Below are positions 25,231-56,274 of a stretch of DNA of 57,256 nt, one piece after another (within the stretch, counting starts at the first letter, position 1; each line of letters starts with the position of its first letter). Made by a program: the position numbers and the translations under genes. The stretch comes from Thermomicrobiales bacterium (lineage in GTDB: Bacteria; Chloroflexota; Chloroflexia; Thermomicrobiales; CFX8). Under the pieces are notes generated by a model that saw only the letters and a list, made by a program, of their open reading frames with translations, searched no databases and was not told the origin of the DNA. Where the stretch lies: the NCBI GenBank assembly GCA_023954495.1, contig JAMLIA010000014.1, positions 1 to 57,256 on the forward strand. The letters are read 5' to 3'.

Positions 25231-25466
25231 TGTCATTCCGAATGCATACGCGAGATCTCCCACCTGCATTGGAGCGAATCGAGCGGGTGGGAGATTCCTC
25301 ACTGCGGTTCGGAATGACAGGACAAGAGGGTGGCTGTCGGCCCGGACTTCTCGCCATTGCTGGCATTGCCGACCCGCTGGACTGGCATCCTCCATGTTCG
25401 CCTGTCATCTTGAGGTCGCAACCGAAAGATCTCCCACCCGTCCGACACAGTCCAACGCAGCGCAGG
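25231..25466. repeat. Palindromic dispersed repeat family A, copy 1
   Basis: The first 89 bases form a long hairpin: TGTCATTCCGAA (25231-25242) pairs with TTCGGAATGACA (25308-25319), and inner arms GAGATCTCCCACC and GGTGGGAGATTC pair as well. A spacer of about 80 bases follows, then a related half-unit starting TGTCATCTTGAGG near 25403 and including GATCTCCCACCCGTCCGACA. A homologous element is at about 29951-30165. This is a non-coding REP/MITE-like unit filling the 454-base gap after the VanW gene; no transposase is present. Confidence 0.8.
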
Positions 25467-29950: not shown

Positions 29951-30165
29951 CAGCCGAGAGATCTCTTCTCTGTTGGACTGCGTCCGGCGGGTGGGAGATC
30001 TCTCACTGCGGTTCGAGATGACAGGACAAGTAGGAGGTTGCCAAACCAGGTGCTCGTCATTGCCGGCAATGGTGAGCACAGCGACCCGACAGCCACCCAC
30101 GTCCTCTGTCATTTCAAGGCCGCAGCAGAGAAATCTCCCACCCGTCCGACATAGCCCCACGCAGA
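29951..30165. repeat. Palindromic dispersed repeat family A, copy 2
   Basis: Homologous to the element at 25231-25466. The left half ends GGTTCGAGATGACAGGACAAG and contains GGGTGGGAGATCTCTCACTGC; the right half begins CTGTCATTTCAAGG and contains AATCTCCCACCCGTCCGACA, pairing with the left half across a spacer of about 80 bases. The spacer holds its own palindrome ATTGCCGGCAAT (30059-30070), matched by ATTGCTGGCAT in copy 1. It lies after the SnoaL-like gene, in a 563-base gap. Confidence 0.78.
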
Positions 30166-33658: not shown

Positions 33659-33959
33659 GGACAGGACCTGGCCTGTCCTCGCCGTGAGGCGACTCTCCCG
33701 CGTCGAATGCTCGTGTCTCGGCGCATCGCCACCGCGTCACCCTGGTACCGGGGCGTATCGCATACGCCCGTTTGGCCGACTGATCCGAACCGATCGGCAG
33801 CCACGATGTCCGGGTGCATCTGCTAGCTGGTCGTGTTTCTGGCCGGGCGTATGCGATACGCCCCTACATTTTGGGGCCGATGCGGTGGTGATACACCGAG
33901 CCCCCCCACCAACCAGGTGCAAGGTCGCCTCACGGCGAAGGACAGGCCGGGTCCTGTCC
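33659..33959. repeat. Nested-palindrome repeat family B, copy 1
   Basis: About 300 bases filling the gap between convergent genes. Outer arms of about 35 bases at 33659-33693 and 33924-33959 pair almost perfectly, including GGACAGGACCTGGCCTGTCC and its complement. Inner arms at 33750-33770 and 33844-33864 pair over 21 bases; each is itself palindromic around GGGCGTATCGCATACGCCC. The same inner units recur at about 42.3 kb. There is no coding capacity or transposase, so it is a non-autonomous or structural repeat. Confidence 0.85.
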
Positions 33960-42284: not shown

Positions 42285-42510
42285 CCTCCTGGATGACGGC
42301 GGTCTTGGCACATCACAACTGCGTCGGTTGCGATATGTAGGGGCGTATTGCATACGCCCGGCCAGCAACACGACCATCCAGCATGGGCACCCGTACACCG
42401 TGGATGCCGTTCGGAGCGGGCCGAGGTGCCAAACGGGCGTATGCAATACGCCCCTACACACCGGGGCCGATGGAGGGGGTGAAACGCCAAGACCGCCGTC
42501 ATCCAGGAGG
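42285..42510. repeat. Nested-palindrome repeat family B, copy 2
   Basis: Outer arms at 42285-42309 and 42486-42510 are perfect 25-bp inverted repeats (CCTCCTGGATGACGGCGGTC and its complement). Inner arms at 42338-42360 and 42434-42458 contain GGGGCGTATTGCATACGCCC and its complement. A tail to about 42580 has CGCCATGGCCC and ACCCCGCGAGGACAGG, also seen at 44.8 kb. It shares the inner unit with the copy at 33.7 kb but has different outer arms. The frame of the next gene is open across it, by chance I think. Confidence 0.85.
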
Positions 42511-42650
42511 ACAGAGCCGCCATGGCCCGGGTGTCCCTTGGGCGCTGGCACCCCGCGAGGACAGGATCCGGCCTGCCCGTTCGGAAAGATCACATTGTCG
42601 CCGCTGGCCAAACGACCATACGCTCCTCACTCCACTGTCTGGCACGCGAC

Positions 42651-44771
42651 ATGCAACCGCAACGCGACATGGAGACGCCACGGGTAAGCACGCGGTGGTC
42701 CAAGCTTTTTGGCTGGTCGGCAGCTATTCTCGTGCTGCTCGGGCTGGCATTGGCAACCGTCTGGCCAGCGCCGATCGACAGCGGCAAGCTACCCGGCGTC
42801 TATCTCGCCAGCGACCTGCAGCTCAGCCACTGGTCCAGCGCGCTGACGATCAAGCAGGCGTTCGCACGCGGCGACATCCCGCTCTGGAACGATCATTACG
42901 GCGGTGGGCGTCCACTCTCCGGCGATCCGCTCGCGGCGCTGTGGTATCCGCCGACACAGCTCTTGCGGCTGTTCTCCGTCCGCGACTATCTGCTGCTGAC
43001 GGTCATCGGCCACCTGCTGCTGGCTGGGGTCGGGATGCTGCTGCTGGCGCGATTCGCGTTCGGCATGCCGAAGCTTCCGGCGCTGTTCGCCGCCGTCGCC
43101 TGGCAGGCGACGCCGCGGCTCGTCGCGCACCTCGGTGCTGGTCACCTGACGATGGTGCAGGCCGTCGGCTGGCTCCCCTGGGTCGCGCTCACGGCCTGGC
43201 TGGCGGTCAGGAATCCCGTCCGCTGGGCACCGGCGCTGGCCGCCTGCCTGACCATGCTCATCCTCGCCGGTCATCCGCAGATCACCTACTACGGACTGCT
43301 GATGCTGGCCGGCGTCTGCGCCCGGCTCGTCATCCAGCGCTGGTGCACGGCCGGGCGGGGCGACGCCCTACGCTCGGCTGCCGGACTCTTCGCAGCCGGC
43401 GTCATTGCGGCGCTGATCGCCAGCGTCCATCTGGTGCCGATGCTCGAATTCACCCGCCACTCCACCCGCGAGGGCGCGGTCGGGACGACGGACGCGACGA
43501 CCGTCTGGCCGGCACTCAAGGCACTCGCCGGTTTCTGGATGCCCTCCGGCGTGCCGCATGAGGCGATGTTCGATCCGGGGCGGGCGGTGTTGATCCTGGC
43601 GCTCATCGGCCTCGTCGTCGCGGGGCGACGGATTGCACTACCGTTCCTGCTCGGCCTCGCTATCATCTTCGGGCTTGCAATCGGCGTCGATTCGCCAGTC
43701 TTCAAGGTCGCTCGCCACATCCTGCCCGAACTCGCCAGCTTCCGCGGCGTCGCGCGGGTCTGGTTCCTCGGGTTGCTCGGCATCGCCATCCTTGCCGGCT
43801 TCGGCGTCGCTGCGATCCTGCGGCGCGTCGACAACACCTCGCCAACGGCGGCTCGTGTGCTCGGTGTAGTCGGGCTGATGGCATTGGCAGGTAATCTCGT
43901 CTGGACAACCCACCACCTGACAAACGTCGCTGAGATCGGCCCGTACGTGACCCCCGACGATGCCGAGATTGCCATCGCAGCGGCAGCCGATGGCGGCCGC
44001 ATCTACGGCGCGCAGCGCAACGTCCGCCAGCCGGTCGCCGTCGCGCTCGGACTGGAAACGCTCGATGGTCAGGACCCGCTGCTGATCGAGACGCACGTCC
44101 GGTTGATGAGCCAGGCCGGCGACTACCGCTGGAAGGGCTACGAGCTGTCGGTTCCACCGTTCCAGGTCTATGAGCCGGACTACTCGACCTACCAATACCC
44201 CGACCCGGACCCTCAACTCCTCGCCCTGCTCGGCGTGACCATCGTCGCGTCGTGGTTCCCGATCGATAACCCGCACCTGCAGGAGGTCGCCTACGTCGAC
44301 AACACACACATCTACCGCATCACGCTCGACAGCACGCCGGCGCGCCTCTATCGCCCACTCGTGGAGGGCGAACCGCTTCGCCGCAGCGGCATGCAACGGC
44401 TCGACACGTCGATCAACGTGGTATCGCAGGAGAGCGAGCGCAGTGTCTTCACCTGGACGACGACGGAAGAAGGCTGGCTCATCCTCGGTTGGCCGGCTTA
44501 CCCAGGCTGGCACGCCGAGCTGGATGGCAAACGCGTCGAGGTCGAGACAGTCGATGGCACGCTACCCGCCGTCTGGTCACCCCGCGGCGTGCACCGGCTG
44601 GAGTGGGTCTACGACCCCGCGTCAGTCCGCTTGGGCGGGGCGTTGTCCATCGTCGGGCTAGTAGTGCTGCTCTGTTGGACTGCTGCCATCCTCTGGCCGT
44701 TCAAACGCGTCCAACGCCAACTGCACCCATCTCCCACCCACCACCTCGAAGGTAACCGCGTCGGTGAGTGA
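42651..44771 (+). CDS. YfhO-like polytopic membrane protein
   Basis: 706 residues from the ATG at 42651 (or the ATG six codons later). The open frame extends upstream to 42522 but that part is repeat DNA. About 11-12 membrane helices span roughly residues 20-430. The stretch RGDIPLWNDHYGGGRPLSGDPLAALWYPPTQLL matches the YfhO pattern (PLWNPYxxGGxPLxADPQ), and the C-terminal extracellular part with WPAYPGWHAELDGKRV and RLEWVYDP is also typical. YfhO proteins are linked to glycosylation of wall polymers such as lipoteichoic acid. A last helix lies near the C-terminus. Confidence 0.82.
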   Translation: MQPQRDMETPRVSTRWSKLFGWSAAILVLLGLALATVWPAPIDSGKLPGVYLASDLQLSHWSSALTIKQAFARGDIPLWNDHYGGGRPLSGDPLAALWYPPTQLLRLFSVRDYLLLTVIGHLLLAGVGMLLLARFAFGMPKLPALFAAVAWQATPRLVAHLGAGHLTMVQAVGWLPWVALTAWLAVRNPVRWAPALAACLTMLILAGHPQITYYGLLMLAGVCARLVIQRWCTAGRGDALRSAAGLFAAGVIAALIASVHLVPMLEFTRHSTREGAVGTTDATTVWPALKALAGFWMPSGVPHEAMFDPGRAVLILALIGLVVAGRRIALPFLLGLAIIFGLAIGVDSPVFKVARHILPELASFRGVARVWFLGLLGIAILAGFGVAAILRRVDNTSPTAARVLGVVGLMALAGNLVWTTHHLTNVAEIGPYVTPDDAEIAIAAAADGGRIYGAQRNVRQPVAVALGLETLDGQDPLLIETHVRLMSQAGDYRWKGYELSVPPFQVYEPDYSTYQYPDPDPQLLALLGVTIVASWFPIDNPHLQEVAYVDNTHIYRITLDSTPARLYRPLVEGEPLRRSGMQRLDTSINVVSQESERSVFTWTTTEEGWLILGWPAYPGWHAELDGKRVEVETVDGTLPAVWSPRGVHRLEWVYDPASVRLGGALSIVGLVVLLCWTAAILWPFKRVQRQLHPSPTHHLEGNRVGE

Positions 44772-44814
44772 AGGGGATCCAACGCGTTCGCTTGCTACCA
44801 GTCGCAGGAGCGTC

Positions 44815-44866
44815 GCCATGGCCCAGAGGGCACCCCGCGAGGACAGGTCGGGCCTGTCCCTACGGA
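44815..44866. repeat. Solo end of repeat family B
   Basis: CGCCATGGCCC, then GGCACCCCGCGAGGACAGG and the palindrome GGACAGGTCGGGCCTGTCC (44841-44859) match the tail of the element at 42.5 kb, but no inner arms are present. It lies in the 180-base gap between the convergent YfhO-like and argF genes, which holds nothing else. Confidence 0.6.
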
Positions 44867-44951
44867 GCGAAACGGGCCGCGTAGATAGCGCCACATCCCG
44901 CGCGCCAGAGTGGCGGCGGGGAAATGCGCGGTGCGGGTTGGCGCAGATGGT

Positions 44952-45944
44952 CTAGTCGGCGGCGACCTTGTGCTCGGCGGTGGCGGCTGAGGGCAGCGAC
45001 GGCTGAGCCGCGCTGCCCTTCAGCTGTCCCTTGAGCAGTGCATAGAGAACGGCGTGCGAGGTGTGCAGGCGGTTTTCAGCCTGGTCGAAGACGATCGACT
45101 GCGGACCGTCGATGACCTCGGCGGTTACTTCCTCACCGCGATGGACCGGCAGGCAGTGCATGAACACGGCGTCGTGGTTCGGCAGGTCGGTCATCAGGCC
45201 CTGAGTGACGCGATAGGGCGTCAGGTCGGCGTAGGCCTTGGCCCGCGTCTCCTCGCTGTCGCCCATCGAGAACCAGGTGTCGGTGTAGACGGCGTCCGCC
45301 TCCCAGACTGCCTGGTAGGGATCGGTGGTCAGTTCGACGGTCGCGCCGGTGATCTTGGCGATCTCCTTGGCGTTGGCGGCGATCATCGGATCAGGGCCGT
45401 AGCCGTCGGGGGTCGCAGCGGTGATCGACAGTCCGGCCATCGCCGAGACCTCAAGCAGGCTGTTCAGGACGTTGTTGAACGCGCCGACGTAGGCGAGCTT
45501 CTTGCCCTTGAGCGTGCCCCACTTTTCCTTGAGCGTCATGATGTCGGCCAGGCTCTGCATCGGATGATGCAGGTCAGTCAGCGCATTGATGACCGGAATC
45601 GATGCCTTCTCAGCCACCAGCTTGACATCGTCGTCAGCGTACGTGCGGATGACGAACGCGGAAGCGTAGCGACTGACAACCATAGCCGTGTCTTCGAGCG
45701 TCTCGCCACGACCGATCTGCAGATCAGCGGAGTTGACCGACGACGGGATGCCGCCCAGACGCGCAACAGCCGTCTCGAACGAGAACCGGGTGCGGGTCGA
45801 TGGCTTGGCGAAGTAGAGCACCACAGTCTGGCCAGTCAGCAGACCGTGATGCTTCATGGGGTCCTTCTTCAGCTCGGAAGCGAGGTCGAGCACCAGGTTC
45901 ATATCGTCAATCGAGAGGTCCGAGGTTCGCAGCAGGTCTTTCAT
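44952..45944 (-). CDS. argF: Ornithine carbamoyltransferase
   Basis: 330 residues. The carbamoyl-phosphate site STRTRFSFE (residues 49-57), HHPMQSLADIMTL, the FSMGD ornithine loop and HCLPVHRGEEV are all present. It makes citrulline from ornithine and carbamoyl phosphate in arginine synthesis; the SMG loop favours ornithine over acetylornithine. The C-terminus is extended by a Ser/Ala-rich tail of about 20 residues. The gene stands alone with a 470-base upstream gap holding two palindromes. Confidence 0.96.
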   Translation of the reverse strand: MKDLLRTSDLSIDDMNLVLDLASELKKDPMKHHGLLTGQTVVLYFAKPSTRTRFSFETAVARLGGIPSSVNSADLQIGRGETLEDTAMVVSRYASAFVIRTYADDDVKLVAEKASIPVINALTDLHHPMQSLADIMTLKEKWGTLKGKKLAYVGAFNNVLNSLLEVSAMAGLSITAATPDGYGPDPMIAANAKEIAKITGATVELTTDPYQAVWEADAVYTDTWFSMGDSEETRAKAYADLTPYRVTQGLMTDLPNHDAVFMHCLPVHRGEEVTAEVIDGPQSIVFDQAENRLHTSHAVLYALLKGQLKGSAAQPSLPSAATAEHKVAAD

Positions 45945-45991
45945 CAGTATCTCCGGTAGCTCCAGGCATCAGTGCGAGTGACAGATCGTCA

Positions 45992-46076
45992 GCCATGAGT
46001 CATGGCATCCTCTGCCTGAGTCGCCTGGCGGAAACCGGAAACAGACCGGGGTGCCGGGCGTCAGGCGTAGCGCCTG
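45992..46076 (-). promoter_or_regulatory. Two palindromes in the argF leader
   Basis: GCCATGAGTCATGGC (45992-46006) is a 15-base perfect palindrome 48 bases before the argF ATG, and CAGGCGTAGCGCCTG (46062-46076) is a perfect 6-bp stem-loop inside a larger GTGCC/GGCAC pairing. They could be an operator and a leader hairpin. No typical ArgR box (TGAAT-N4-ATTCA) is seen. The rest of the gap to 46417 has no recognisable gene. Confidence 0.35.
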
Positions 46077-46314
46077 CACCTGATGGCACACGCACCCGTC
46101 ACATGTGTTGATGTGATGAAAGCCTGCGTTGTGGAGAAGATAGTGTACGTTGGGTTCATGACCGGCTCCAGACGAATCGAAACGGACGACGAAAACAACA
46201 GCTCGCGGTTACGCGCGCCTGCTTCGCCTCGTCCTTGATTCGCGGAACGTCAAAGTCACGAAATCCCCTCCCATGGCATCGCGCCATGAACGACACCGAA
46301 CGACTGTATCACCA

Positions 46315-46336
46315 CATCGACCACGAGTCAACACCC
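46315..46336. repeat. Direct repeat, distal copy of the pair flanking the subtilase segment
   Basis: A 22-bp sequence (core ATCGACCACGAGTCAACACC) identical to 49539-49560, in the same orientation, 3224 bases apart. This copy lies in non-coding DNA beyond the subtilase stop. Confidence 0.85.
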
Positions 46337-46417
46337 GCAACCTTGCCAGTGATTCCACGGCAACGTCGCCGTTCGGCTTCCTTGCTGGGCAAACGCTGCC
46401 CGATCAGCGAGGCAGCA

Positions 46418-49270
46418 TCAGCGCATCGTGAAGTTGATCGTGGTTCCGTCGCTATCGCCATCCGGGTCGTGGTTCCCGGACGCGTCATACGCCAGTGTCG
46501 CGTGTGTCACCGAATCGACGCTGAAGCTCGCGGCCCTCGTGCTCGACGGCAGCGTGCCCGACGAAAGCGTGCAGATCCCGGCCGTGCCGGTGATGCATGA
46601 CACACGGGTCGACCACGCCCCCTGCCGGAATGTCCCACTGACAGTGCCGTTTGCGACCGCGCCGCCGTCGCTTGTCTCGACTCGGACGCTGACGGTCAGG
46701 CTCGCCCAGAACCAGAAGCGGGAATAGGCGCCGTCCAGATCGCCGATACGCATCGTCGCCGCCGGTGCGGCCACATTGACCGTTTGGCTGGTTTGCGTGC
46801 TCGCGCCTGCGTTGTCCGTTACGGCGAGCGTCACGGTATAGCTTCCCGCGCTGGAGTACGTGTGATTGGCGGTTACGCCGCTGCCGGTCGAACTATCACC
46901 GAACGTCCAGTCATACCTCGTTATCGAGCCGTCGGGATCTCGCGAGCCGCTCGCATTGAAGGCGCAGGAAAGTCCGTCGCACGTCGCCGTGAAAACCGCC
47001 TCTGGCGACGAGTTGATGTTCTTGACGTCCACCGTGATGGCCGCACTCGTTGTCGACTGATTGGCGGTATCGGTTGCCGTCGCCGTCAGAACATGTGCCC
47101 CATCGCCGACACTGCTCGAGGTCCATGAGACACCCCAGCCATCACTGCCGTTCGTATCGACACCAATTGAGGCATTGTCGACGAAGAACGCGACCTTCGT
47201 GACGCCGACATCATCGCCAGCGGTTGCCGAGATGTTGACCGAGCCAGCGACTGTCGTTGCCCCCGCCGGGCTGACTATCGCAACACTCGGCGGAGTATCA
47301 ATAGCAACAGCGGACTCGACACTGACGGAATTGAGATTGAAGAGATAGCCGGGATTCGAGCCGCTATAGCCGAAGACAAGCTTGACTGTGTGCGACCCGG
47401 CCGGCAGAGCCACTGCACTGCTCATCGAATTTGCCCACGTCTGCCAGCCACCGGTGCTTGAGATCGCGATCTGTCCGGACACGTCAGCATCATCGACCAG
47501 CACACGAACCGTCGCGTTCGAATTCGGTGTGGCGACGCGGAACGAGAACGTGTAGTTGCCGGCCTCGGCGACCGTCGCGGCGTAAGAAAGCCATTCACCT
47601 GACTCGATCCAGCCGACATCGAAGCAGGCGGAGCCGTCGGAGCAGGCCTCCTTGTCGACATCATCGTCCCAGTACGCGCCACCTGAATTTCCGGTCGTGC
47701 TGTCGAAGAAGCCGCCATAGTCCTCGGCCTGGAATAAACCCGGCAACACGACCGGTCGAACGATCCTGACGTTCGTTGGGTCAGTGATCGTGCTGTCGTT
47801 GGTGGCATTGACTGCGCGCGCACGGATCGCGTGTGGCCCGGTGGCTGCGGCGCTGGTGTTCCAACTCAACTCGTATCGTGAACTGGACGCGTTCCAGGCA
47901 GCCGTGTTCCAGGTGCCTCCGTCAATGCTGATCGAGACGGAAAGTGACCCAGCCGACGCCGTCACATCATTCGCTGCAACCTGGACGAGGAGCGGAGCAC
48001 CCGGATTCGTGACGATGCTGCCGCTCACAGGGCTGGCGATCATAACAGTAGGACCAGTCGTCGCCTGATCGCAGCTCCCTCCGACGGCCTTGCAGACGTT
48101 GATCCGCCCATTCGCCCAGCGGCTACCGGTCCCCGAGATCTTGTCGGCAGTAGATTCAAGTCGGCTGCGAACCGCTGTTTTGCTCGTTCCATACGGTGTC
48201 GACCAGAGTAGGCCAGCCAACCCGGAGACAAACGGCGCTGCCATCGACGTGCCACTCATCAGGCCATAGGTGCTGCCCATTGTCGTGGAGAGAATACTCT
48301 GGCCCGGTGCGGCAACATCCACCCAACTGCCAAAGTTCGAGAAGCTTGCCTTCTGGTCCTGGCTTGTGGTCGCGGCAACCGCGATTGTACTGCTGTAATA
48401 GGCCGGATAGAACGGCCTCGATGTGTTGCTGTTGCCTGCCGCAGCGACGATAACGACCCCCTTGCTCCAAGCGTAATTAATCGACGACTGCACTGCGTAC
48501 GAACCGGATGATCCGCCAAGACTGAGGTTGATGACTTTGGCCCCGTTGTCGAGTGCCCAGTTGATCCCGGTGGTGATGTCCCCCCACGAGCCATTGCCGT
48601 CATCACCCAGCACCTTGACGTTGTAGAGCACACATGCTGGACACGTCCCGGCGACACCCAGACCATTACCCGTCGTCGCTGCCACAATGCCTGCAACGTG
48701 GGTACCATGTCCGTAGCGATCCTCGGCCGTCGAGCTGCTGGAGAAATTGACCGACTTCACGACCTTGCCGGCCAGGTCGGCATGGCTTGAGTCGATGCCT
48801 GTGTCGACGATGGCAACGGCCACACTTGGGCTGCCCTGCGTAACGTCCCACGCTGCGAACGCATCTATATCGGCATCCGCAGTGCCGCCAGTCTGGCCCG
48901 TATTCTCATATTGCCACTGCTCGCCAACGCGCGGGTCGTTTGGCATCGCGACAGCGCTATAGATGCCATTCAGTTCGGCATATTCAACCAGCGGGTTGCG
49001 CCGAAGTTGTTCCAGTCGCGAATTTTCGGTGCCACGCGACACCGATACAACCTGAACATCGACGCCGCGAACAGTCTTCCGAATCCGACCTCCCGAGTCG
49101 CGAAGAATACTGGCCATGTCCGACGACTGAACACCAGTCCGGAATTTCACCAGGAGCTCGCCCGGCACGAAGCCCGAGGCGGTGTCTGGCCTGGCGATGG
49201 CCGGAGTGGGCGCGGCGAACGTTACAAGCGCTGAGAGGAGGAACAACATCAGAGAGATCCGACGCAGCAT
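46418..49270 (-). CDS. Secreted subtilisin-like protease with CBM6-like, Ig-like and PKD domains
   Basis: 950 residues. A signal peptide (residues 1-26, ending PAIA) is followed by a fervidolysin-type propeptide to about 110. The S8 domain has Asp156 (IVDTGID), His188 (YGHGTHVAG), Asn280 (AAAGN) and Ser342 (MSGTSMAAP). Then come an Ig-like region (about 405-505), a CBM6-like region (FQAEDYGG to about 665), a second Ig-like region, a PKD domain (YDWTFGDSSTGSG ... HTYSSAGSYTVTLAVTDNAG) and a terminal beta domain without a wall anchor. It should be a secreted protease that binds carbohydrate or surfaces. Codon and base use look less GC-rich than the neighbours, and the gene is bounded by direct repeats. 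Confidence 0.93.
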   Translation of the reverse strand: MLRRISLMLFLLSALVTFAAPTPAIARPDTASGFVPGELLVKFRTGVQSSDMASILRDSGGRIRKTVRGVDVQVVSVSRGTENSRLEQLRRNPLVEYAELNGIYSAVAMPNDPRVGEQWQYENTGQTGGTADADIDAFAAWDVTQGSPSVAVAIVDTGIDSSHADLAGKVVKSVNFSSSSTAEDRYGHGTHVAGIVAATTGNGLGVAGTCPACVLYNVKVLGDDGNGSWGDITTGINWALDNGAKVINLSLGGSSGSYAVQSSINYAWSKGVVIVAAAGNSNTSRPFYPAYYSSTIAVAATTSQDQKASFSNFGSWVDVAAPGQSILSTTMGSTYGLMSGTSMAAPFVSGLAGLLWSTPYGTSKTAVRSRLESTADKISGTGSRWANGRINVCKAVGGSCDQATTGPTVMIASPVSGSIVTNPGAPLLVQVAANDVTASAGSLSVSISIDGGTWNTAAWNASSSRYELSWNTSAAATGPHAIRARAVNATNDSTITDPTNVRIVRPVVLPGLFQAEDYGGFFDSTTGNSGGAYWDDDVDKEACSDGSACFDVGWIESGEWLSYAATVAEAGNYTFSFRVATPNSNATVRVLVDDADVSGQIAISSTGGWQTWANSMSSAVALPAGSHTVKLVFGYSGSNPGYLFNLNSVSVESAVAIDTPPSVAIVSPAGATTVAGSVNISATAGDDVGVTKVAFFVDNASIGVDTNGSDGWGVSWTSSSVGDGAHVLTATATDTANQSTTSAAITVDVKNINSSPEAVFTATCDGLSCAFNASGSRDPDGSITRYDWTFGDSSTGSGVTANHTYSSAGSYTVTLAVTDNAGASTQTSQTVNVAAPAATMRIGDLDGAYSRFWFWASLTVSVRVETSDGGAVANGTVSGTFRQGAWSTRVSCITGTAGICTLSSGTLPSSTRAASFSVDSVTHATLAYDASGNHDPDGDSDGTTINFTMR

Positions 49271-49538
49271 CTGGCTGTCCTGACGCTATGGAGGATGGAT
49301 GCTCGCGCGACGCGGGAGTAACGCGACGTGGTGCAGATCCGTCCGGGACGTTTCGGGCGACGCATCTCAGGATCTGAGCCCTGTCGAGTGGGGACATCCG
49401 TCCACATGCTCCAACCGGCCCGATGGATACGTCAGTGATACGCAGAAGTTACCTGCATCATAGAGTCGAATACCGCGTTTGTATAGCGTGTCACGAGCGA
49501 CCAATTGATCCAGTCCGGGGCCTCGGACCAGGACTCAT
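49271..49538. other. Subtilase leader region, no gene seen
   Basis: This 268-base stretch upstream of the subtilase has no convincing coding frame. On the minus strand it contains TCAGATCCTGA and other short inverted repeats and a GGAGGATGGATGC stretch near the gene. Some of the segment is AT-richer (GAATACCGCGTTTGTATAGC). A promoter for the protease should lie here, but no hexamer pair stands out. Confidence 0.3.
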
Positions 49539-49560
49539 CATCGACCACGAGTCAACACCC
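49539..49560. repeat. Direct repeat, copy overlapping the 3' end of the phosphatase gene
   Basis: The 22-bp partner of 46315-46336. It covers the last two sense codons and TGA of the inositol-monophosphatase-family gene plus 13 bases beyond, the position typical of attachment sites used by integrating elements. Confidence 0.85.
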
Positions 49561-50394
49561 ACCGATGTCTGATCCAGAAGTTGCGAACGAAGGCAGCAAG
49601 GCATCACGGGCGTTTCGCCATGTTTCACGCGAAATAGCCGTCATGAGACCCATCTGGCCGTCGAACGGTCGCCAGCGGCTGCCATCGTAGCGCAGGGCCA
49701 CACCGCCGGCCTCCTCGACCAGCAGGCAGCCCGGTGCGTGATCCCACGGCAGCGTCCGATAGTAGAGCGTGAGTTCGAGGACGCCTCGGGCGACATCGGT
49801 GTGATCCCAGGCAGCCGAACCGCAGGCCGCAGTCGCGGCGAACCGTGGTCGCGCGGCGTCGGCCACGCTGCGCATTGGCTCCGGCAGCATGCGCGTTTCA
49901 ATCGCGCCACGCATCACCGCCAGCGGACGCTGCTCTGCGACGCTCACGCTGACGCCACCGAGCCGCGCACCGGCACCACGCTCTGCCGTCGCCAGCCAGC
50001 CGGCCACCGGCGCGTAGATCCACGACGCCACCGTCTCGCCACGCTGGATCAATGCGATCATCATGCCGAACTGCTCGTTGCCGCTGACAAACGCGCGGGT
50101 TCCGTCGAGCGGATCGATCGTCCAGACGAGGTGGTCGTTGAGTACCTGCACATCTGAAATTGGGTTGGTTGCCGACGACTCCTCGCCGTAGATCAGGGCT
50201 TCCGGCAGCAGATCGGACAACCGCGCGGCCAGCAGGCGCTCGGCATCGATGTCGGCGACGGTGACCAGCTCTCCAGCCGACTTCTCGCTGACATCCTCAT
50301 CGGTCAGGTGTCGAAAGCGCGGCAGGATTGCTACGTCCGCGACCTCGCGCAGGAGATCGGCTACGTCGTCAATCAGCCCGTCGGGGATCAGCAC
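49552..50394 (-). CDS. Inositol monophosphatase family protein
   Basis: 280 residues. Metal-binding motifs are Glu71 in YGEES, Asp94 and Asp97 in WTIDPLDGTRAFV and an Asp in LPWDHAPG. These define the FIG/IMPase phosphatase superfamily, which also includes histidinol-phosphate and 3'-phosphoadenosine 5'-phosphate phosphatases, so the substrate is open. The stop and last codons lie inside a 22-bp repeat duplicated beyond the subtilase gene. No operon partner is evident. Confidence 0.88.
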   Translation of the reverse strand: MLIPDGLIDDVADLLREVADVAILPRFRHLTDEDVSEKSAGELVTVADIDAERLLAARLSDLLPEALIYGEESSATNPISDVQVLNDHLVWTIDPLDGTRAFVSGNEQFGMMIALIQRGETVASWIYAPVAGWLATAERGAGARLGGVSVSVAEQRPLAVMRGAIETRMLPEPMRSVADAARPRFAATAACGSAAWDHTDVARGVLELTLYYRTLPWDHAPGCLLVEEAGGVALRYDGSRWRPFDGQMGLMTAISRETWRNARDALLPSFATSGSDIGGC

Positions 50395-50454
50395 GACTCC
50401 TCCGTCACGTTACGACGAACTCGACAGGCCAGTATCGCACACTATGGGGGATGG

Positions 50455-51093
50455 CTACTTGGTCGGTGCGCTGCTCAGCTGGAAGCAGCAGCGCGGCGGG
50501 TCGCTGGTCCGATCGCAACACTCACAGACCTGCAGGCCGGTGGCAGTGGCGAGCAGCGACTGCGCTAGCAGGCAGGCGTCGGGCGACTGGCTGACGACAT
50601 CAGCCAGCGGGCAGGCACGCCCACGCAGCATGACAACGTCGCCGTCCGCTTCAACCTCTGCCAGACCACCGAGCGCGTCGATCGCCTGGACGGCCAGCGC
50701 CACCCGCTCATCGACGCTCGCATCGGCGGCAGGCGGGGCGGCCAATCGCTCCCCGGCGCTGAGCAGCATCTGGCGCGTCTCATCATCGCCGCGTTCTTCG
50801 CGGACAACATCGACGACGGCTGTCAGCACCGACGCGTACGCCTTCGGGAACAGCTCCTCGGCGGCGGGGGAGAGCTCGTAGGCATACGAAGGCTTCCCTG
50901 CGCCACGCCGCAAACCCTCCTGCTGCACGAGGCCGTCGCGCTCCAGCGTCGTCAGGTGCGCGCGGACGGCGTTGTCGGTCAGATCCAGCTCACCAGCAAG
51001 CTCGTTGACCGTGTGCGCCGATCGGCGTAGCAGCATCACGACGCGTCCCTGCGTGCTCGCGAAAAAACGCTGATCCCATCGCTGCCTGGCCAT
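50455..51093 (-). CDS. SufR/COG2345-like winged-helix regulator with Cys-rich C-terminus
   Basis: 212 residues from the ATG at 51093, chosen because GAGG lies six bases upstream; the frame extends to 51192 but across the operator. The N-terminal HTH (STQGRVVMLLRRSAHTVNELAGELDLTDNAVRAHLTTLERDGLVQ) is of the DeoR/ArsR type. The C-terminal part has Cys161, 174, 190, 192, 193, 202 and 203; the C-x12-C spacing and later Cys pair resemble SufR-type Fe-S sensors. It probably binds the palindrome in front of its own gene and controls both itself and the divergent cupredoxin cluster. Confidence 0.72.
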   Translation of the reverse strand: MARQRWDQRFFASTQGRVVMLLRRSAHTVNELAGELDLTDNAVRAHLTTLERDGLVQQEGLRRGAGKPSYAYELSPAAEELFPKAYASVLTAVVDVVREERGDDETRQMLLSAGERLAAPPAADASVDERVALAVQAIDALGGLAEVEADGDVVMLRGRACPLADVVSQSPDACLLAQSLLATATGLQVCECCDRTSDPPRCCFQLSSAPTK

Positions 51094-51146
51094 CGTCCGC
51101 CTCACTCTCGTCCTCATCGCTATCGTCAATGCCGTGTCTGCCGACT

Positions 51147-51221
51147 GGTATACGAAGAATGTCGCATTTTCGTCAAGTAAGTCAACAAACATCTTGACTT
51201 ATTGTATTACGCGCCTATGCT
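51147..51221. promoter_or_regulatory. Divergent promoters overlapping a perfect palindromic operator
   Basis: TAAGTCAA-N8-TTGACTTA at 51178-51201 is a perfect palindrome with 8-base arms. On the plus strand its right arm contains TTGACT (51194-51199), 16 bases before TATGCT (51216-51221), a good promoter for the cluster starting at 51285. On the minus strand TTGACG (51176-51171) lies 18 bases before TATACC (51152-51147), a promoter for the regulator gene. A bound regulator would cover the plus -35 and sit against the minus one. Confidence 0.75.
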
Positions 51222-51284
51222 GAGACCAACATCGATTATCGCGAGGCCATCGGAAGTTCCGGCCGATGGCCCAGGAGAAAGGAT

Positions 51285-51599
51285 ATGCATGTGCAGCGGC
51301 ACGTGGTTGGAGACAGACCGGCATCGTGGCCGGCGTGGCTTTTCCGGATTGGGCTACTGATTTTCGCCCTCGGCGCCGCGGGTGATTTCCTCCACCACCT
51401 GCTGCCCGGCATCGCCGCCCAGATGACATTCGTGCTGGGCAGCGAAGGCGAACGCGCGCACCTGATCACGCTGGTCGGGATGCTGGTGGTCGCCGCCGCG
51501 CTCTTCGCACTGGCCGCCAACGACCGCGCTGCGACGGCGGCACGGCGCGCACGCCGGTCGCCGGGCGACCCATATTCCAGCAACTCACGTACTCACTAG
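51285..51599 (+). CDS. Small membrane protein of the cupredoxin cluster
   Basis: 104 residues; ATG with AGGAGAAAGGA upstream. Two hydrophobic segments (about residues 17-35 and 60-78) are separated by a loop containing GDFLHHLLPG and a polar part, with a basic C-terminus. The His pair could bind metal, but no family is recognised. It is the first gene after the divergent operator, so it should be controlled by the SufR-like regulator. Confidence 0.6.
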   Translation: MHVQRHVVGDRPASWPAWLFRIGLLIFALGAAGDFLHHLLPGIAAQMTFVLGSEGERAHLITLVGMLVVAAALFALAANDRAATAARRARRSPGDPYSSNSRTH

Positions 51600-51670
51600 C
51601 CAAATGAGAGAGGAGATCTTCCGATGCCGTATGGCAATGCCTGTAAACAGTTTCCCCGGCTTCTCTTTGT

Positions 51671-51934
51671 ATGGCTGCGCACCTCACCGCGTTTCTGATC
51701 GGCGCGTTCTTCGCCCGCAAGGCATTGAGCGCCGGTCTGGCACCGATCGGCTGGGGCTTCGCGCTCTTCGCCGTCGCCGAGATCGTCTACATGACCTACC
51801 ACCTCGACTGGACGATCTTCCTGTTCGCCCACACCGTCGCCGAAGTGCTCGACCTGAGCGCCTTCATCCTCATCTTCGCCGGCGTCCTGCAACTGGGCGG
51901 CCTGAGCCTTGGACGGGAAGAGACGCACGCATGA
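51671..51934 (+). CDS. Small three-helix membrane protein of the cupredoxin cluster
   Basis: 87 residues, mostly hydrophobic, with His residues in YMTYHLDW and FAHTVAEV. The ATG at 51671 lacks a ribosome site, while a well-placed GAGGAG serves an ATG at 51624 in another frame whose 24-codon frame ends inside this gene (51698). A frameshift, natural or from sequencing, may hide the real start. The end overlaps the cupredoxin start by 4 bases. No known family. Confidence 0.55.
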   Translation: MAAHLTAFLIGAFFARKALSAGLAPIGWGFALFAVAEIVYMTYHLDWTIFLFAHTVAEVLDLSAFILIFAGVLQLGGLSLGREETHA

Positions 51935-52284
51935 ACCGCCTGACGTTCATGGTCGCGCTGGCCACAGCGTGCGTGCTTGCCCTGGTTCTCTCCGCTTGCG
52001 GAGGCGATGCCAGCGGCAAGGAGCCGGTCGCGACCAACCAGATCAATCTGCCGCCCAGCTATCGCTTCGATCCCGAGGTCATTACCGTCGCGGCCGGAAC
52101 AACGGTCACCTGGACCAACAACGATCACTTCACCCACAACGTGCAGGTCGAGGACGGCGAGGTCATGATCATGAAGCCCGGCGACAGCGTCACTTTCACC
52201 TTCGACACACCCGGTACCTACGACTTCACCTGCACCTATCACCCCCACGATATGCAGGGCCAGGTCATCGTAACGACGTCGTGA
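51931..52284 (+). CDS. Cupredoxin (plastocyanin/azurin-like) lipoprotein
   Basis: 117 residues. The signal peptide ends in the lipobox VLSAC, so the mature protein is membrane-anchored outside the cell. Type 1 copper ligands are His69 in HFTHNV and Cys101, His104 and Met108 in FTCTYHPHDMQG. ITVAAGTTVTWTNNDHFTHNV is the family core. It should carry electrons or bind copper. The ATG overlaps the upstream stop (ATGA). Confidence 0.9.
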   Translation: MNRLTFMVALATACVLALVLSACGGDASGKEPVATNQINLPPSYRFDPEVITVAAGTTVTWTNNDHFTHNVQVEDGEVMIMKPGDSVTFTFDTPGTYDFTCTYHPHDMQGQVIVTTS

Positions 52285-52347
52285 TACGCAGCCTGCTGCG
52301 CGAGGTGGACCAGCGATCTCCACCTCGCACACCGGAAGGAACCTGAC

Positions 52348-52665
52348 ATGTTCGACCAGACATTCTTCGGCGCGATCCTGCCGCGCGAGGCGACCCGGTT
52401 CGCCACCGAGCATCCTGATTCCGTCCCGGTCGTCTCCGTCCTGCTCACCGACACGACGCAGCTCGATGTCTGCCGCGTGCTGGGCCTGTCGGACCAGTGG
52501 GTTGCGCTGGCGCGCTTCCGCCAGCCGAGCATCTGCGACGATGTCGACATCGTCTTCGTGCCCTACCCGACGATCGCCAGAGTCACTATCGCCGTGCCGC
52601 ACATCTCGGAACGGCAGATCGGCTTCGCGGCGACTGCGGCACTCGGCGAGCACGTGTCGGCATGA
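52348..52665 (+). CDS. Small protein of unknown function after the cupredoxin gene
   Basis: 105 residues; ATG with GGAAGGAAC upstream. It looks soluble and alpha/beta (VVSVLLTDTTQLDVCRVLGL, DVDIVFVPYPTIARVTIAV, RQIGFAATAAL). No family is recognised. It lies 63 bases after the cupredoxin gene in the same direction and is probably the last gene of that cluster. Confidence 0.6.
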   Translation: MFDQTFFGAILPREATRFATEHPDSVPVVSVLLTDTTQLDVCRVLGLSDQWVALARFRQPSICDDVDIVFVPYPTIARVTIAVPHISERQIGFAATAALGEHVSA

Positions 52666-52718
52666 ACCCCACTCGACGGGCAAGCGACCGGCAGGCGCTG
52701 GTCGCGTTCCCCCGTTCG

Positions 52719-54368
52719 TCAGGCAGCGTGCGTCATCCGGCAGTAGCACGACGCGCGGATCGGGATATCGGCGCGCGCAGCGGCGAGATCCAGCCGCTGG
52801 CGGATCATCGCCGCCAGTGCGTGCTTGCCCTGCCGGACCAGACATTCGTGGTAGCCGTGCAGGCTCCAGACATTCTCGGGGTGCTGATAGGCACGCGGCA
52901 GCGAGCCGTCCAGCCCGAGGTCGGCGCAATAGACCGCCTCGGCCTCCTCGACGTGGCCCTGCTCCAGCAGCAACGCACCGTAGGCGTGGCGCGTCGGCTG
53001 CATCCAGCCCCACGGCTCGTCGTACACCAGCCCGTCCTCCAGCTCAATCGAGCGCCGCAGGTGCGCGTAAGCGACGTCGTAATTCCCGCGCCGATATTCC
53101 AGCTCACCGGCCAGCATCTCGGCCGCGATCGCCAGGATGTCCTGGCAGGTGTTGTTGAACAGCGTGCGGGTCTCCGGGACGCGCGCAACGGCGTCATGGA
53201 ACAGGCGCTGCTGCTCTTCGGCCTCAGCAACCTGGCCGGTCGCCGAGAAGGCCACGCCCTTGGCGTAGTGGTAAAGCGCCGTCGTCGTGCAGAACAGCTC
53301 GGGATCGTCCGGCAGCGGCGCGTCGATGATCTCTTGCCAGCGCCCGAAGCGGATCAGGACGTGCATCTTGACCGCCATGAAGCCCTCCAGCCAGTCGGCC
53401 ATCGGCGGGGCTTCCATCTGCAGCAACTCAAGCGGGATCGTCTCGACCACCTCATCGGCAGTGCGCAGGGCGATTTCCGACTGGCCAATGAACATCGCGC
53501 CGTAGAGCTTGAAGTGGAAGTTGTGGACGCGGTAGAGCGTGTAGAAGTTCATTGCACCCTCACGCTCGCGGTACTTCTCGTCGGCAATGACCGCGTCGTG
53601 GTTCGAGGCGACGACCTGATAGTAGTGGCCGCAGAGCACGTCGATGTGAGTCGGCATGTGGCGCAGGTGGCCGGCATCCGGCACCAGATCGCGCAGCCAG
53701 TCTCCGGCGCGCAGAGCCAGCTCGGGGAACGGCGACATCTCCATCAGATGGATGTACATGTGCAGTACACCCGGGTGGACGCGGCACTCCGACGTCTCCA
53801 GCGCGCGCTCCAGGATCGCGCGCGCCTCGTTCGTGTCGGCACCCTCGGCGACATCGCCGCTGGCCAGATCCCAGAGCGCCCAGGGCGTGCGGTTCATCAG
53901 CGCCTCGGCGGTCAGCGCTGCGACATCCAGATCGTCGGGATAGGCGGCGTAGACCGCGCGCATCGCAGCCGCGTAATCGTCGGTCCAACTGGTGAAGTCT
54001 TCGACCGGCGTGTCGGACTGATAGCGCTGCTGCAGCGCCTCGATCAGCGCTCGCTCGACCGGCTGGACGCCATCCAGCAGGGCGGCAGCCTGGCGGGCAG
54101 CGGTGTGCGTGCGCTCGACCGTCTTCGGCAGTTCCGACGGGTCGTACATGTCCCAGGTCTTGTTTTAGTGCGGACCTCCGGCGTAGGCGACGCCCCAGTA
54201 GGCCATCGCACAGGACGGGTCGGCCCTGATCGCGCGCTTGAAGCAGCGCAGCGCCTCGCCGTGGTTAAAGCCATAGGTCCAGATCAGACCACGATCGAAC
54301 CAGCGTTGCGCCTCGGGAGACGTCGTCGTGATCGAGCGAGAGTGGCTGCCAAGGTCATAGTAGTCAGT
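52719..54368 (-). pseudogene. TPR-type protein gene interrupted by one in-frame TAA
   Basis: Read from an ATG at 54368 (GAGGAG eight bases upstream), the frame matches the adjacent paralogue over its whole length, 550 codons, but codon 68 is TAA at 54167-54165. The paralogue has GPNYNYDWD where this copy reads GPH-stop-NKTWD, so a Tyr codon TAC or TAT has become TAA. No base is gained or lost. The downstream part (from an ATG at 54149) keeps all motifs, such as LHMYIHLMEMSPFPE, HLRHMPTHIDVLCG and EPWGWMQPTRHAYGALLLEQG. It is a recent pseudogene, a two-part gene or a sequencing error. Confidence 0.7.
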
Positions 54369-54404
54369 CATCGTGATCACTCCTCTATGAAGTGCCGCTG
54401 CGGC

Positions 54405-56057
54405 TCATGCCGCAGATACGGACCTGCAGAAGCAGGACGATTCGACCGGCACGTCGGCCAGGCCACGGGCGGCATCAAGACGCTCGAGAATCGCGGCGGC
54501 CTCGTCAAGCTTGCCCTGTCGTACCAGACATTCGTGGTAGCCGTGCAACGCCCAGACGTTGTCCGGGTGCTGGTGGGCGCGGGGCAGCGAATCATCCAGC
54601 CCCAGATCGGCCCGGTAGACGTCAGCGGCCTCATCGACCTGGCCCTGCTCCAACAGGAGCGCGCCGAGCGCGTGGCGCGGCGGCTGCATCCAGGCCCACG
54701 GCTCGGAGTAGAGCAGTCCGTCGGAGCGCTCGACCGAGCGGCGCAGATGGTCAAACGCCAGATCGTAGTTGCCCTTGCGGTACTCCAGCTCACCGGCCAG
54801 CATTTCGGCGGAAATGCCGAGGATGTCCCGGCAGGTGTTGTTCTGGAAGACGCGCGTCTCCGGGACGCGAGCGTAGGCGGCCTCGAACAGCCGCCGCTGC
54901 TCTTCGGCCTCGGCGACGACCCCGGTCGCGGCGAACGCAACACCGCGCGCGTAGTGAACCATCGCAGTCGAGACGCAGTAGAGCGTCGGATCGTCCGGCA
55001 ACGGTGTGTCGATAATCTCCTGCCAGCGACCAAAGCGGATCAGCGCGTGCAGCTTCATCGAAAAGCGCGCTTCCAGCCGGTCGGCCATCGGCGGCGTCTG
55101 GACATGCATCAGCTCAATCGGGATCGCGTTGACCATCCCCTCGGCGGCCTCAATCGCCACGTCCGACTGGCCGAGGAACATCGCGCCATACAGCTTGAAA
55201 TGGTAGTTGTGCGTCCGGTAGAGGGTATAGACATTCATCGCCCCCTCCCGCTCACGGTACTTCTCGTCGGCGACGATGGCCGCGCTATTGGAATCGACCA
55301 CCGCCTGGTAGTCGCCGCAGAGCATGTCGATGTGGGTCGGCATGTGATGGAGATGACCGGCGTCCGGCACCAGACCGCGCAGCGCATCCGCCGCTGCCGC
55401 AGCCTTCTCCGGGAACGGCGACATCTCCATCAGGTGGATGTACATGTGCAGCACACCGGGATGGCGCATCCCGTCCGGCGTGGTCATGGCGCGCTCCAGC
55501 ACCTGCCGCGCCTCGACGGCGCTCGAGTTGTGCGCCGGCTCACCGGTCGGGAGATCCCACAAGCGCCACGGTGTGCGGTTGATCAACGCCTCCGCGAACA
55601 GCGCCACCACGTCGAGGTCGTCCGGGAAGGCGGCGTAGACTGCGCGCATCGCGTCGGCGTAGGCGTCGCTCCAGACCCACAGATCGTCGGGCACCGTCGT
55701 CGACTGGTAGCGCGCCGCGATGGCCTCAATCAGCGCACGCTCGACCGGGCTGGTGGGTGGTGCGAGGGCGCTGGCCTGCTCGACGGCCGCGCCGGTCGTT
55801 GCCAGCATCTTAACCAGCGTCTCCAGATCGATGTGGTCCCAGTCGTAGTTGTAGTTCGGGCCCGCCGCGTAGGCGATGCCCCACTGCGCCATCGCGCAAC
55901 GCGGGTCGGCATCGAGCGCGCGCCGGAAGCAGCGCACAGCCTCCTCATGATTGAAGCCGTAGGTCCAGATCAGACCGCGATCGAACCAGCGTTGCGCCTC
56001 TGGAGACGACGTCGTGATCGATCGGGAGTGGCTACCGAGGTCAAAGTAATCAGGCAT
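54405..56057 (-). CDS. Tetratricopeptide-repeat-like protein, intact paralogue
   Basis: 550 residues from the ATG at 56057 with AAGGAGA six bases upstream. Helical repeat segments of TPR type run through it (AEEQRRLFEAAYARVPETRVF, YDLAFDHLRRSVERSDGLL, ALLLEQGQVDEAADVYRADL). Conserved blocks shared with the upstream-broken copy include LHMYIHLMEMSPFPE and HLHHMPTHIDMLCGDY, rich in His and perhaps metal-binding, and a C-terminal SSCFCR. No signal peptide or enzyme motif is seen. Its function is unknown. The divergent gene is a ferredoxin-reductase-like enzyme. Confidence 0.75.
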   Translation of the reverse strand: MPDYFDLGSHSRSITTSSPEAQRWFDRGLIWTYGFNHEEAVRCFRRALDADPRCAMAQWGIAYAAGPNYNYDWDHIDLETLVKMLATTGAAVEQASALAPPTSPVERALIEAIAARYQSTTVPDDLWVWSDAYADAMRAVYAAFPDDLDVVALFAEALINRTPWRLWDLPTGEPAHNSSAVEARQVLERAMTTPDGMRHPGVLHMYIHLMEMSPFPEKAAAAADALRGLVPDAGHLHHMPTHIDMLCGDYQAVVDSNSAAIVADEKYREREGAMNVYTLYRTHNYHFKLYGAMFLGQSDVAIEAAEGMVNAIPIELMHVQTPPMADRLEARFSMKLHALIRFGRWQEIIDTPLPDDPTLYCVSTAMVHYARGVAFAATGVVAEAEEQRRLFEAAYARVPETRVFQNNTCRDILGISAEMLAGELEYRKGNYDLAFDHLRRSVERSDGLLYSEPWAWMQPPRHALGALLLEQGQVDEAADVYRADLGLDDSLPRAHQHPDNVWALHGYHECLVRQGKLDEAAAILERLDAARGLADVPVESSCFCRSVSAA

Positions 56058-56274
56058 CGGGTCTCTCCTTTGAAGCAGCGCAGTGTTGCGGCTGGGAAGG
56101 GCAATCGAACCATATGGATAGCCGTATAGTGACGGAGGAAGCCTGGATTGTCTACCGAGGGCCACCAATCGGGCCGAAAAAACGGTGTTGGTGGCATACC
56201 GTCTGCATGACATAAGGTGCCCGGTTCTGACTGAAGATGAGCGACCGGGAGACGCGAGAGGAAGCATCGACAGG

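Follow-up and report, generated by a model that had tools for sequence, protein, structure and literature searches.

A subtilase gene between two copies of a 22 bp argF promoter sequence in a Thermomicrobiales genome: probable relocation of a native transcription unit

In the 57,256 nt window (the whole stretch of DNA analysed), a subtilase transcription unit occupying 46337–49538 is flanked on both sides by a 22 bp duplication of the argF promoter, and this segment is absent between argF and a TPR-protein gene on a single contig of the closest relative. We consider it moderately probable that a native subtilase unit, promoter included, was relocated or copied into the argF promoter from a locus behind a nitroreductase gene, duplicating a 22 bp target. 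Comparisons within the genus are with one other genome, G001, and both genomes are draft MAGs.

The repeat pair and the argF promoter

The repeat, CATCGACCACGAGTCAACACCC, is present in direct orientation at 46315–46336 (copy 1) and 49539–49560 (copy 2), and the copies are 100% identical. The earlier note had reported these identical sequences and their enclosure of the protease gene with its leader; the identity proves exact, the genome holds these two copies only, and the sole ORF between them is the subtilase, with a further 80 nt downstream. No third copy with up to three mismatches was found in the window (where shuffled sequences lead us to expect none) or across the whole 3.36 Mb genome. 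The other long repeats near the pair trace to tandem TPR paralogues or to a dispersed palindromic family, and the 22 bp pair is therefore not part of this background.

Copy 1 lies upstream of argF, a minus-strand gene (44952–45944; Pfam OTCace/OTCace_N) encoding a 330-residue ornithine carbamoyltransferase with an orthologue in G001 (84% aa identity). A consensus scan together with conservation in G001 identifies a predicted promoter, TTGACT-17-TACAGT (46303–46331, minus strand), 359 nt upstream of argF, and copy 1, which reads GGGTGTTGACTCGTGGTCGATG on the minus strand, supplies its -35 hexamer. The G001 argF gene (contig C88) has TTGACT-17-TAGAGT at the orthologous place, and the counterpart of copy 1 there (L095:3330–3351) is identical at 18 of 22 positions, with no phosphatase gene nearby. 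A blastn alignment of the two argF upstream regions runs up to 46336, exactly where copy 1 stops, and no homology to G001 was detected beyond it (P 0.85, shuffle test); a 12 nt resemblance in that region in a MAFFT alignment did not survive the shuffle test. Copy 2 (minus strand) lacks a -10 hexamer at promoter spacing.

Because G001 has the orthologous argF promoter, with homology ending exactly at the repeat edge, and because argF and the TPR gene flank both loci, we judge copy 1 to be the ancestral copy in its original position and copy 2 to be the derived one. Each of the window copies differs from G001 at 4 of 22 positions but matches the other throughout, so the duplication should be younger than the split from G001. 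The G001 subtilase locus lacks the repeat, its best match having 8 mismatches, which argues that the inserted element did not bring the repeat with it.

The argF leader (45945–46302, about 360 nt) is well conserved, argF plus leader aligning with G001 at 77% identity. It contains a hairpin, CAGGCG-TAG-CGCCTG, in which the stem is kept and the loop is changed relative to G001. The leader has no match in Rfam, and the hairpin is a possible attenuator.

The phosphatase gene end and the locus in G001

Copy 2 overlaps the end of a 280-residue inositol-monophosphatase-family gene (Inositol_P; 49552–50394, minus strand) and spans its last two sense codons and its stop, GGG TGT TGA. The overlap had been recognised in the earlier note, which missed that copy 1 belongs to the argF promoter and regarded the phosphatase 3' end as an integration site; the latter proposal falls, the ancestral copy being the argF -35 region, which G001 has in the absence of a neighbouring phosphatase. 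No phosphatase orthologue was detected in G001, and a homologue search across the order returned one distant match (42% aa identity, in G035) that does not adjoin argF. This homologue ends about 10 aa earlier, the window frame running about 10 aa farther into the TGA of the repeat. The phosphatase, as far as its reading frame tells, merely borrows its stop codon from argF-promoter repeat DNA.

The order on one contig of G001 is argF, an NRAMP gene and the TPR gene, whereas in the window the subtilase, phosphatase, HTH and cupredoxin genes lie between argF and the TPR gene; the repeats mark both borders of the segment that is missing at argF in this closest relative. Neither G001 nor the search for phosphatase homologues in the order yielded an empty site, in which the phosphatase would adjoin argF directly. 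Such a site would have the layout IMPase-GGGTGTTGACTCGTGGTCGATG-TGGTGATACAGT-argF without the subtilase, and when the flanks are joined in silico the phosphatase stop falls inside the -35 hexamer and the argF promoter is intact.

The window departs from G001 and carries repeated sequences at several other places. The phosphatase, ArsR-like HTH and cupredoxin genes (49561–52700) stand where G001 has the NRAMP gene (Pfam), whose closest homologue in this genome is distant (28%, contig C43). A gene for a 749-residue YfhO-like membrane protein (42285–44900) lies between an MFS gene and argF, which are adjacent in G001, and is bordered by dispersed non-coding repeats that include a 19 bp direct pair at 42547 and 44829; this pair was considered as a second case and rejected as belonging to those repeats. 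An element of paired inverted repeats (GGGGCGTATYGCATACGCCC ... reverse complement, the two starts separated by about 95 nt) is present at 33750–33864 and 42336–42458, with 99 half-sites in this genome and none in the same-genus G001 (a reversed control gave 0 matches), and looks like a recent REPIN/MITE-like expansion. Another 19 bp direct pair (25429–25447 and 30133–30151) lies inside a longer imperfect repeat (TGTCATNTNNAGG...ATCTCCCACCCGTCCGACA) and is apparently a further dispersed element. Tandem duplicated TPR-protein genes (52719–56100), 1686 bp apart, explain most of the remaining long direct repeats.

The subtilase and its native origin

The inserted gene encodes a 950-residue secreted S8 subtilase (46418–49270, minus strand) with a Fervidolysin-type prodomain followed by Peptidase_S8, CBM6/35, Big_7 and PKD domains. 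It matches PF00082 (E 9e-50) and the PF22148 prodomain and contains the D/H/S motifs of peptidase family S8 as VDTGID, GHGTHVAG and GTSMAAP. It has its own predicted promoter, TATACA-17-TATGAT (49457–49485, minus strand), whose layout is conserved in an orthologue on contig C15 of G001 and in a paralogue on contig C2 of the present genome (G000:C2), with the TATGAT and the 17 nt spacing identical in all three. The G001 orthologue is 74% identical over 947 aa and 85% identical in the catalytic domain, and the argF, MFS and TPR neighbours are 84%, 84% and 81% identical to their G001 counterparts. We take the subtilase to be native, a genus-level orthologue that has diverged as its housekeeping neighbours have. 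A scan of genome contigs for the subtilase gave no match, and an argF scan matched only the family member G002 and remote taxa. Further subtilases of the genus with the same CBM6/Big_7/PKD-type tail are encoded at L097:6945–9824 and L098:3736–5337, at different loci in the two genomes.

The G001 orthologue sits behind a nitroreductase gene on C15. The syntenic region of the present genome is G000:C2, where the subtilase paralogue (56% aa identity) sits behind the same nitroreductase (72% identical to that of G001). Leader homology between the window and G001:C15 extends from the conserved promoter to approximately 49523, about 15 nt short of copy 2 (0 of 500 shuffles reach as far). No match in either relative was obtained for the 80 nt downstream of the subtilase stop, which therefore give no position for the donor's 3' border.

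The GC content of 46337–49538 is 61.0%, against about 65% in the flanks, and the earlier note was correct in calling the enclosed DNA less GC-rich than its surroundings. Against a genome background of 16 other stretches, the paralogue locus and the window, however, the segment is normal: stretches of 3.2 kb average 62.8% (sd 2.0), and 17.5% of them have a GC content no higher than that of the segment, so it is the flanks that are GC-rich. Of 40 ORFs, few are closer in codon usage to the rest of the window than the subtilase (distance B = 0.192), and a foreign origin by composition was rejected after the genome GC sampling and codon bias. Vertical phylogeny and matching composition, which the earlier note had itself named as evidence against island cargo, are thus what was found. 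It had offered passive cargo, a decayed island or a recombination product as alternatives; the inserted segment and the recombination product stand, while the island and its foreignness do not. Its statement that no integrase is present also stands, the ORFs of the segment and its neighbours being the subtilase, argF, phosphatase, HTH and cupredoxin genes. Three Phage_integrase genes are encoded elsewhere in the genome, on contigs C22, C40 and C41, none of them within or adjacent to the segment. Neither a transposase nor terminal inverted repeats were found for the segment, and no tRNA or known RNA at its borders.

A proposed route and its alternatives

A 14 nt sequence at 49538–49551 (minus strand) matches the 3' end of the G001:C15 nitroreductase gene (CTCGTGGTCGATGA / CTCGTGTTCGACGA; 12 of 14 positions) and is colinear with the subtilase leader. 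It consists of 13 bases of copy 2 and one base beyond (post-hoc null P 0.0046; an equally good match arises in 0.46% of random genomic replacements). Because 13 of the 14 nt also belong to the argF repeat, the match looks like junction microhomology, and it is suggestive of a microhomology used at the junction.

From this arrangement we infer an empty site, a mechanism and the sequence in which events took place. In the simplest order the phosphatase gene would have come to adjoin argF upstream, since GGG TGT TGA is read from argF-promoter DNA and the frame extends beyond that of the homologue by about 10 residues; the subtilase unit would then have been pasted into the argF promoter with the 22 bp target duplication. 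The route was most likely illegitimate recombination during repair or replication, in which a strand extending from the phosphatase through the argF -35 region would switch to the donor at approximately 13 bp of microhomology with the nitroreductase 3' end, copy the subtilase unit, and rejoin the target 22 bp behind its exit point. Such a switch and rejoining would account for the duplicated 22 bp, for borders that are exact and for the footprint of the donor, and through the duplication argF retains an intact promoter and the phosphatase its stop codon. Priming by microhomology would predict CTCGTGGTCGATG, or a near match, at the nitroreductase end of an ancestor-like donor.

The 22 bp duplication is also compatible with the filling of a staggered break or with a mobile element since lost, and staggered-break filling is the main alternative to the strand switch. 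A duplication made by transposition or by the filling of a staggered double-strand break, with no microhomology priming, would leave the nitroreductase match to chance; the duplication does bracket the inserted unit exactly at both ends, as insertion sequences duplicate their target on both sides of the inserted DNA, and the match is only 14 nt long. The segment nevertheless lacks the transposase and terminal inverted repeats of such elements, and 22 bp is long for most insertion-sequence target duplications, and we regard this origin of the duplication as unlikely. That the segment is instead what remains of a site-specific island or of an integrative element, with the repeats as attL and attR at the phosphatase end and the integrase lost or acting in trans, seems very unlikely and is already largely refuted. 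The perfect direct repeats at both ends, one of them over a gene end, resemble those of tyrosine-recombinase islands at gene 3' ends, and the three Phage_integrase genes on other contigs could be cited in its favour; in contrast to such islands, there is no integrase within or adjacent to the segment, the cargo is native in composition and phylogeny, the source locus in G001 has no att copy, and the original repeat is the promoter of the other neighbour rather than a site in a gene with a rebuilt end.

Two further explanations concern the repeats themselves. If the 22-mers were shared regulatory sites, bound by one factor at both genes, their identity would be functional; copy 1 is indeed a conserved promoter element, copy 2 lies upstream of the subtilase, and the 22-mer has a weak dyad (TTGAC-TCGTG-GTCGA). 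We find this scarcely credible given that the 22-mer is missing upstream of the G001 subtilase, that copy 2 has no -10 and a separate predicted promoter serves the subtilase, and that a factor site would need fewer than 22 identical bases; a wider regulon or operator family was rejected, as the genome has no third site within three mismatches. A misjoin at a short repeat is conceivable in a draft metagenome assembly of 152 contigs, yet final k-mer sizes are usually far above 22 bp, the reading frame of the phosphatase comes to a sensible end inside the repeat, and both borders would have to be wrong, which makes an artefact highly improbable.

Relocation of the native unit into the argF promoter, as we prefer to read the locus, finds its closest parallels among the variable segments of bacterial species comparisons, 10–18% of which are flanked by direct repeats, mostly <30 bp, and for many of which illegitimate recombination has been proposed (PMC2884548). 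As in those, the segment here is short, has repeats of <30 bp at its base and no mobility gene, differs in content between relatives, and probably arose by illegitimate recombination; unlike those, a donor locus and an ancestral target copy can be named, and a complete transcription unit appears to have moved within the genus. Spontaneous rearrangements in Salmonella have junction microhomologies of >10 bp (PMC3411829), and the putative microhomology at the junction here would likewise exceed 10 bp, although those rearrangements are mainly deletions, duplications and inversions whereas here a templated insertion would be involved. The subtilase insertion is a known kind of variable segment with an unusually readable history. 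We give little credence to the broader idea that the genus repeatedly moves promoter-plus-gene units by templated paste at 10–20 bp microhomologies, duplicating about 20 bp and sparing the promoters and stops of neighbours. If it were true, an active process would have produced, among other things, the exchange of the subtilase between the loci of argF and the nitroreductase. For the present locus the donor side and the ancestral target are both identifiable, which makes the order of steps (microhomology, target duplication, promoter sparing) testable in one strain set. The locus illustrates that two perfect repeats at the end of a gene can give the relocation of a native gene the look of an island, and it serves as a warning that GC-poor repeat-bounded segments may be miscalled as foreign when local flanks are the sole yardstick.
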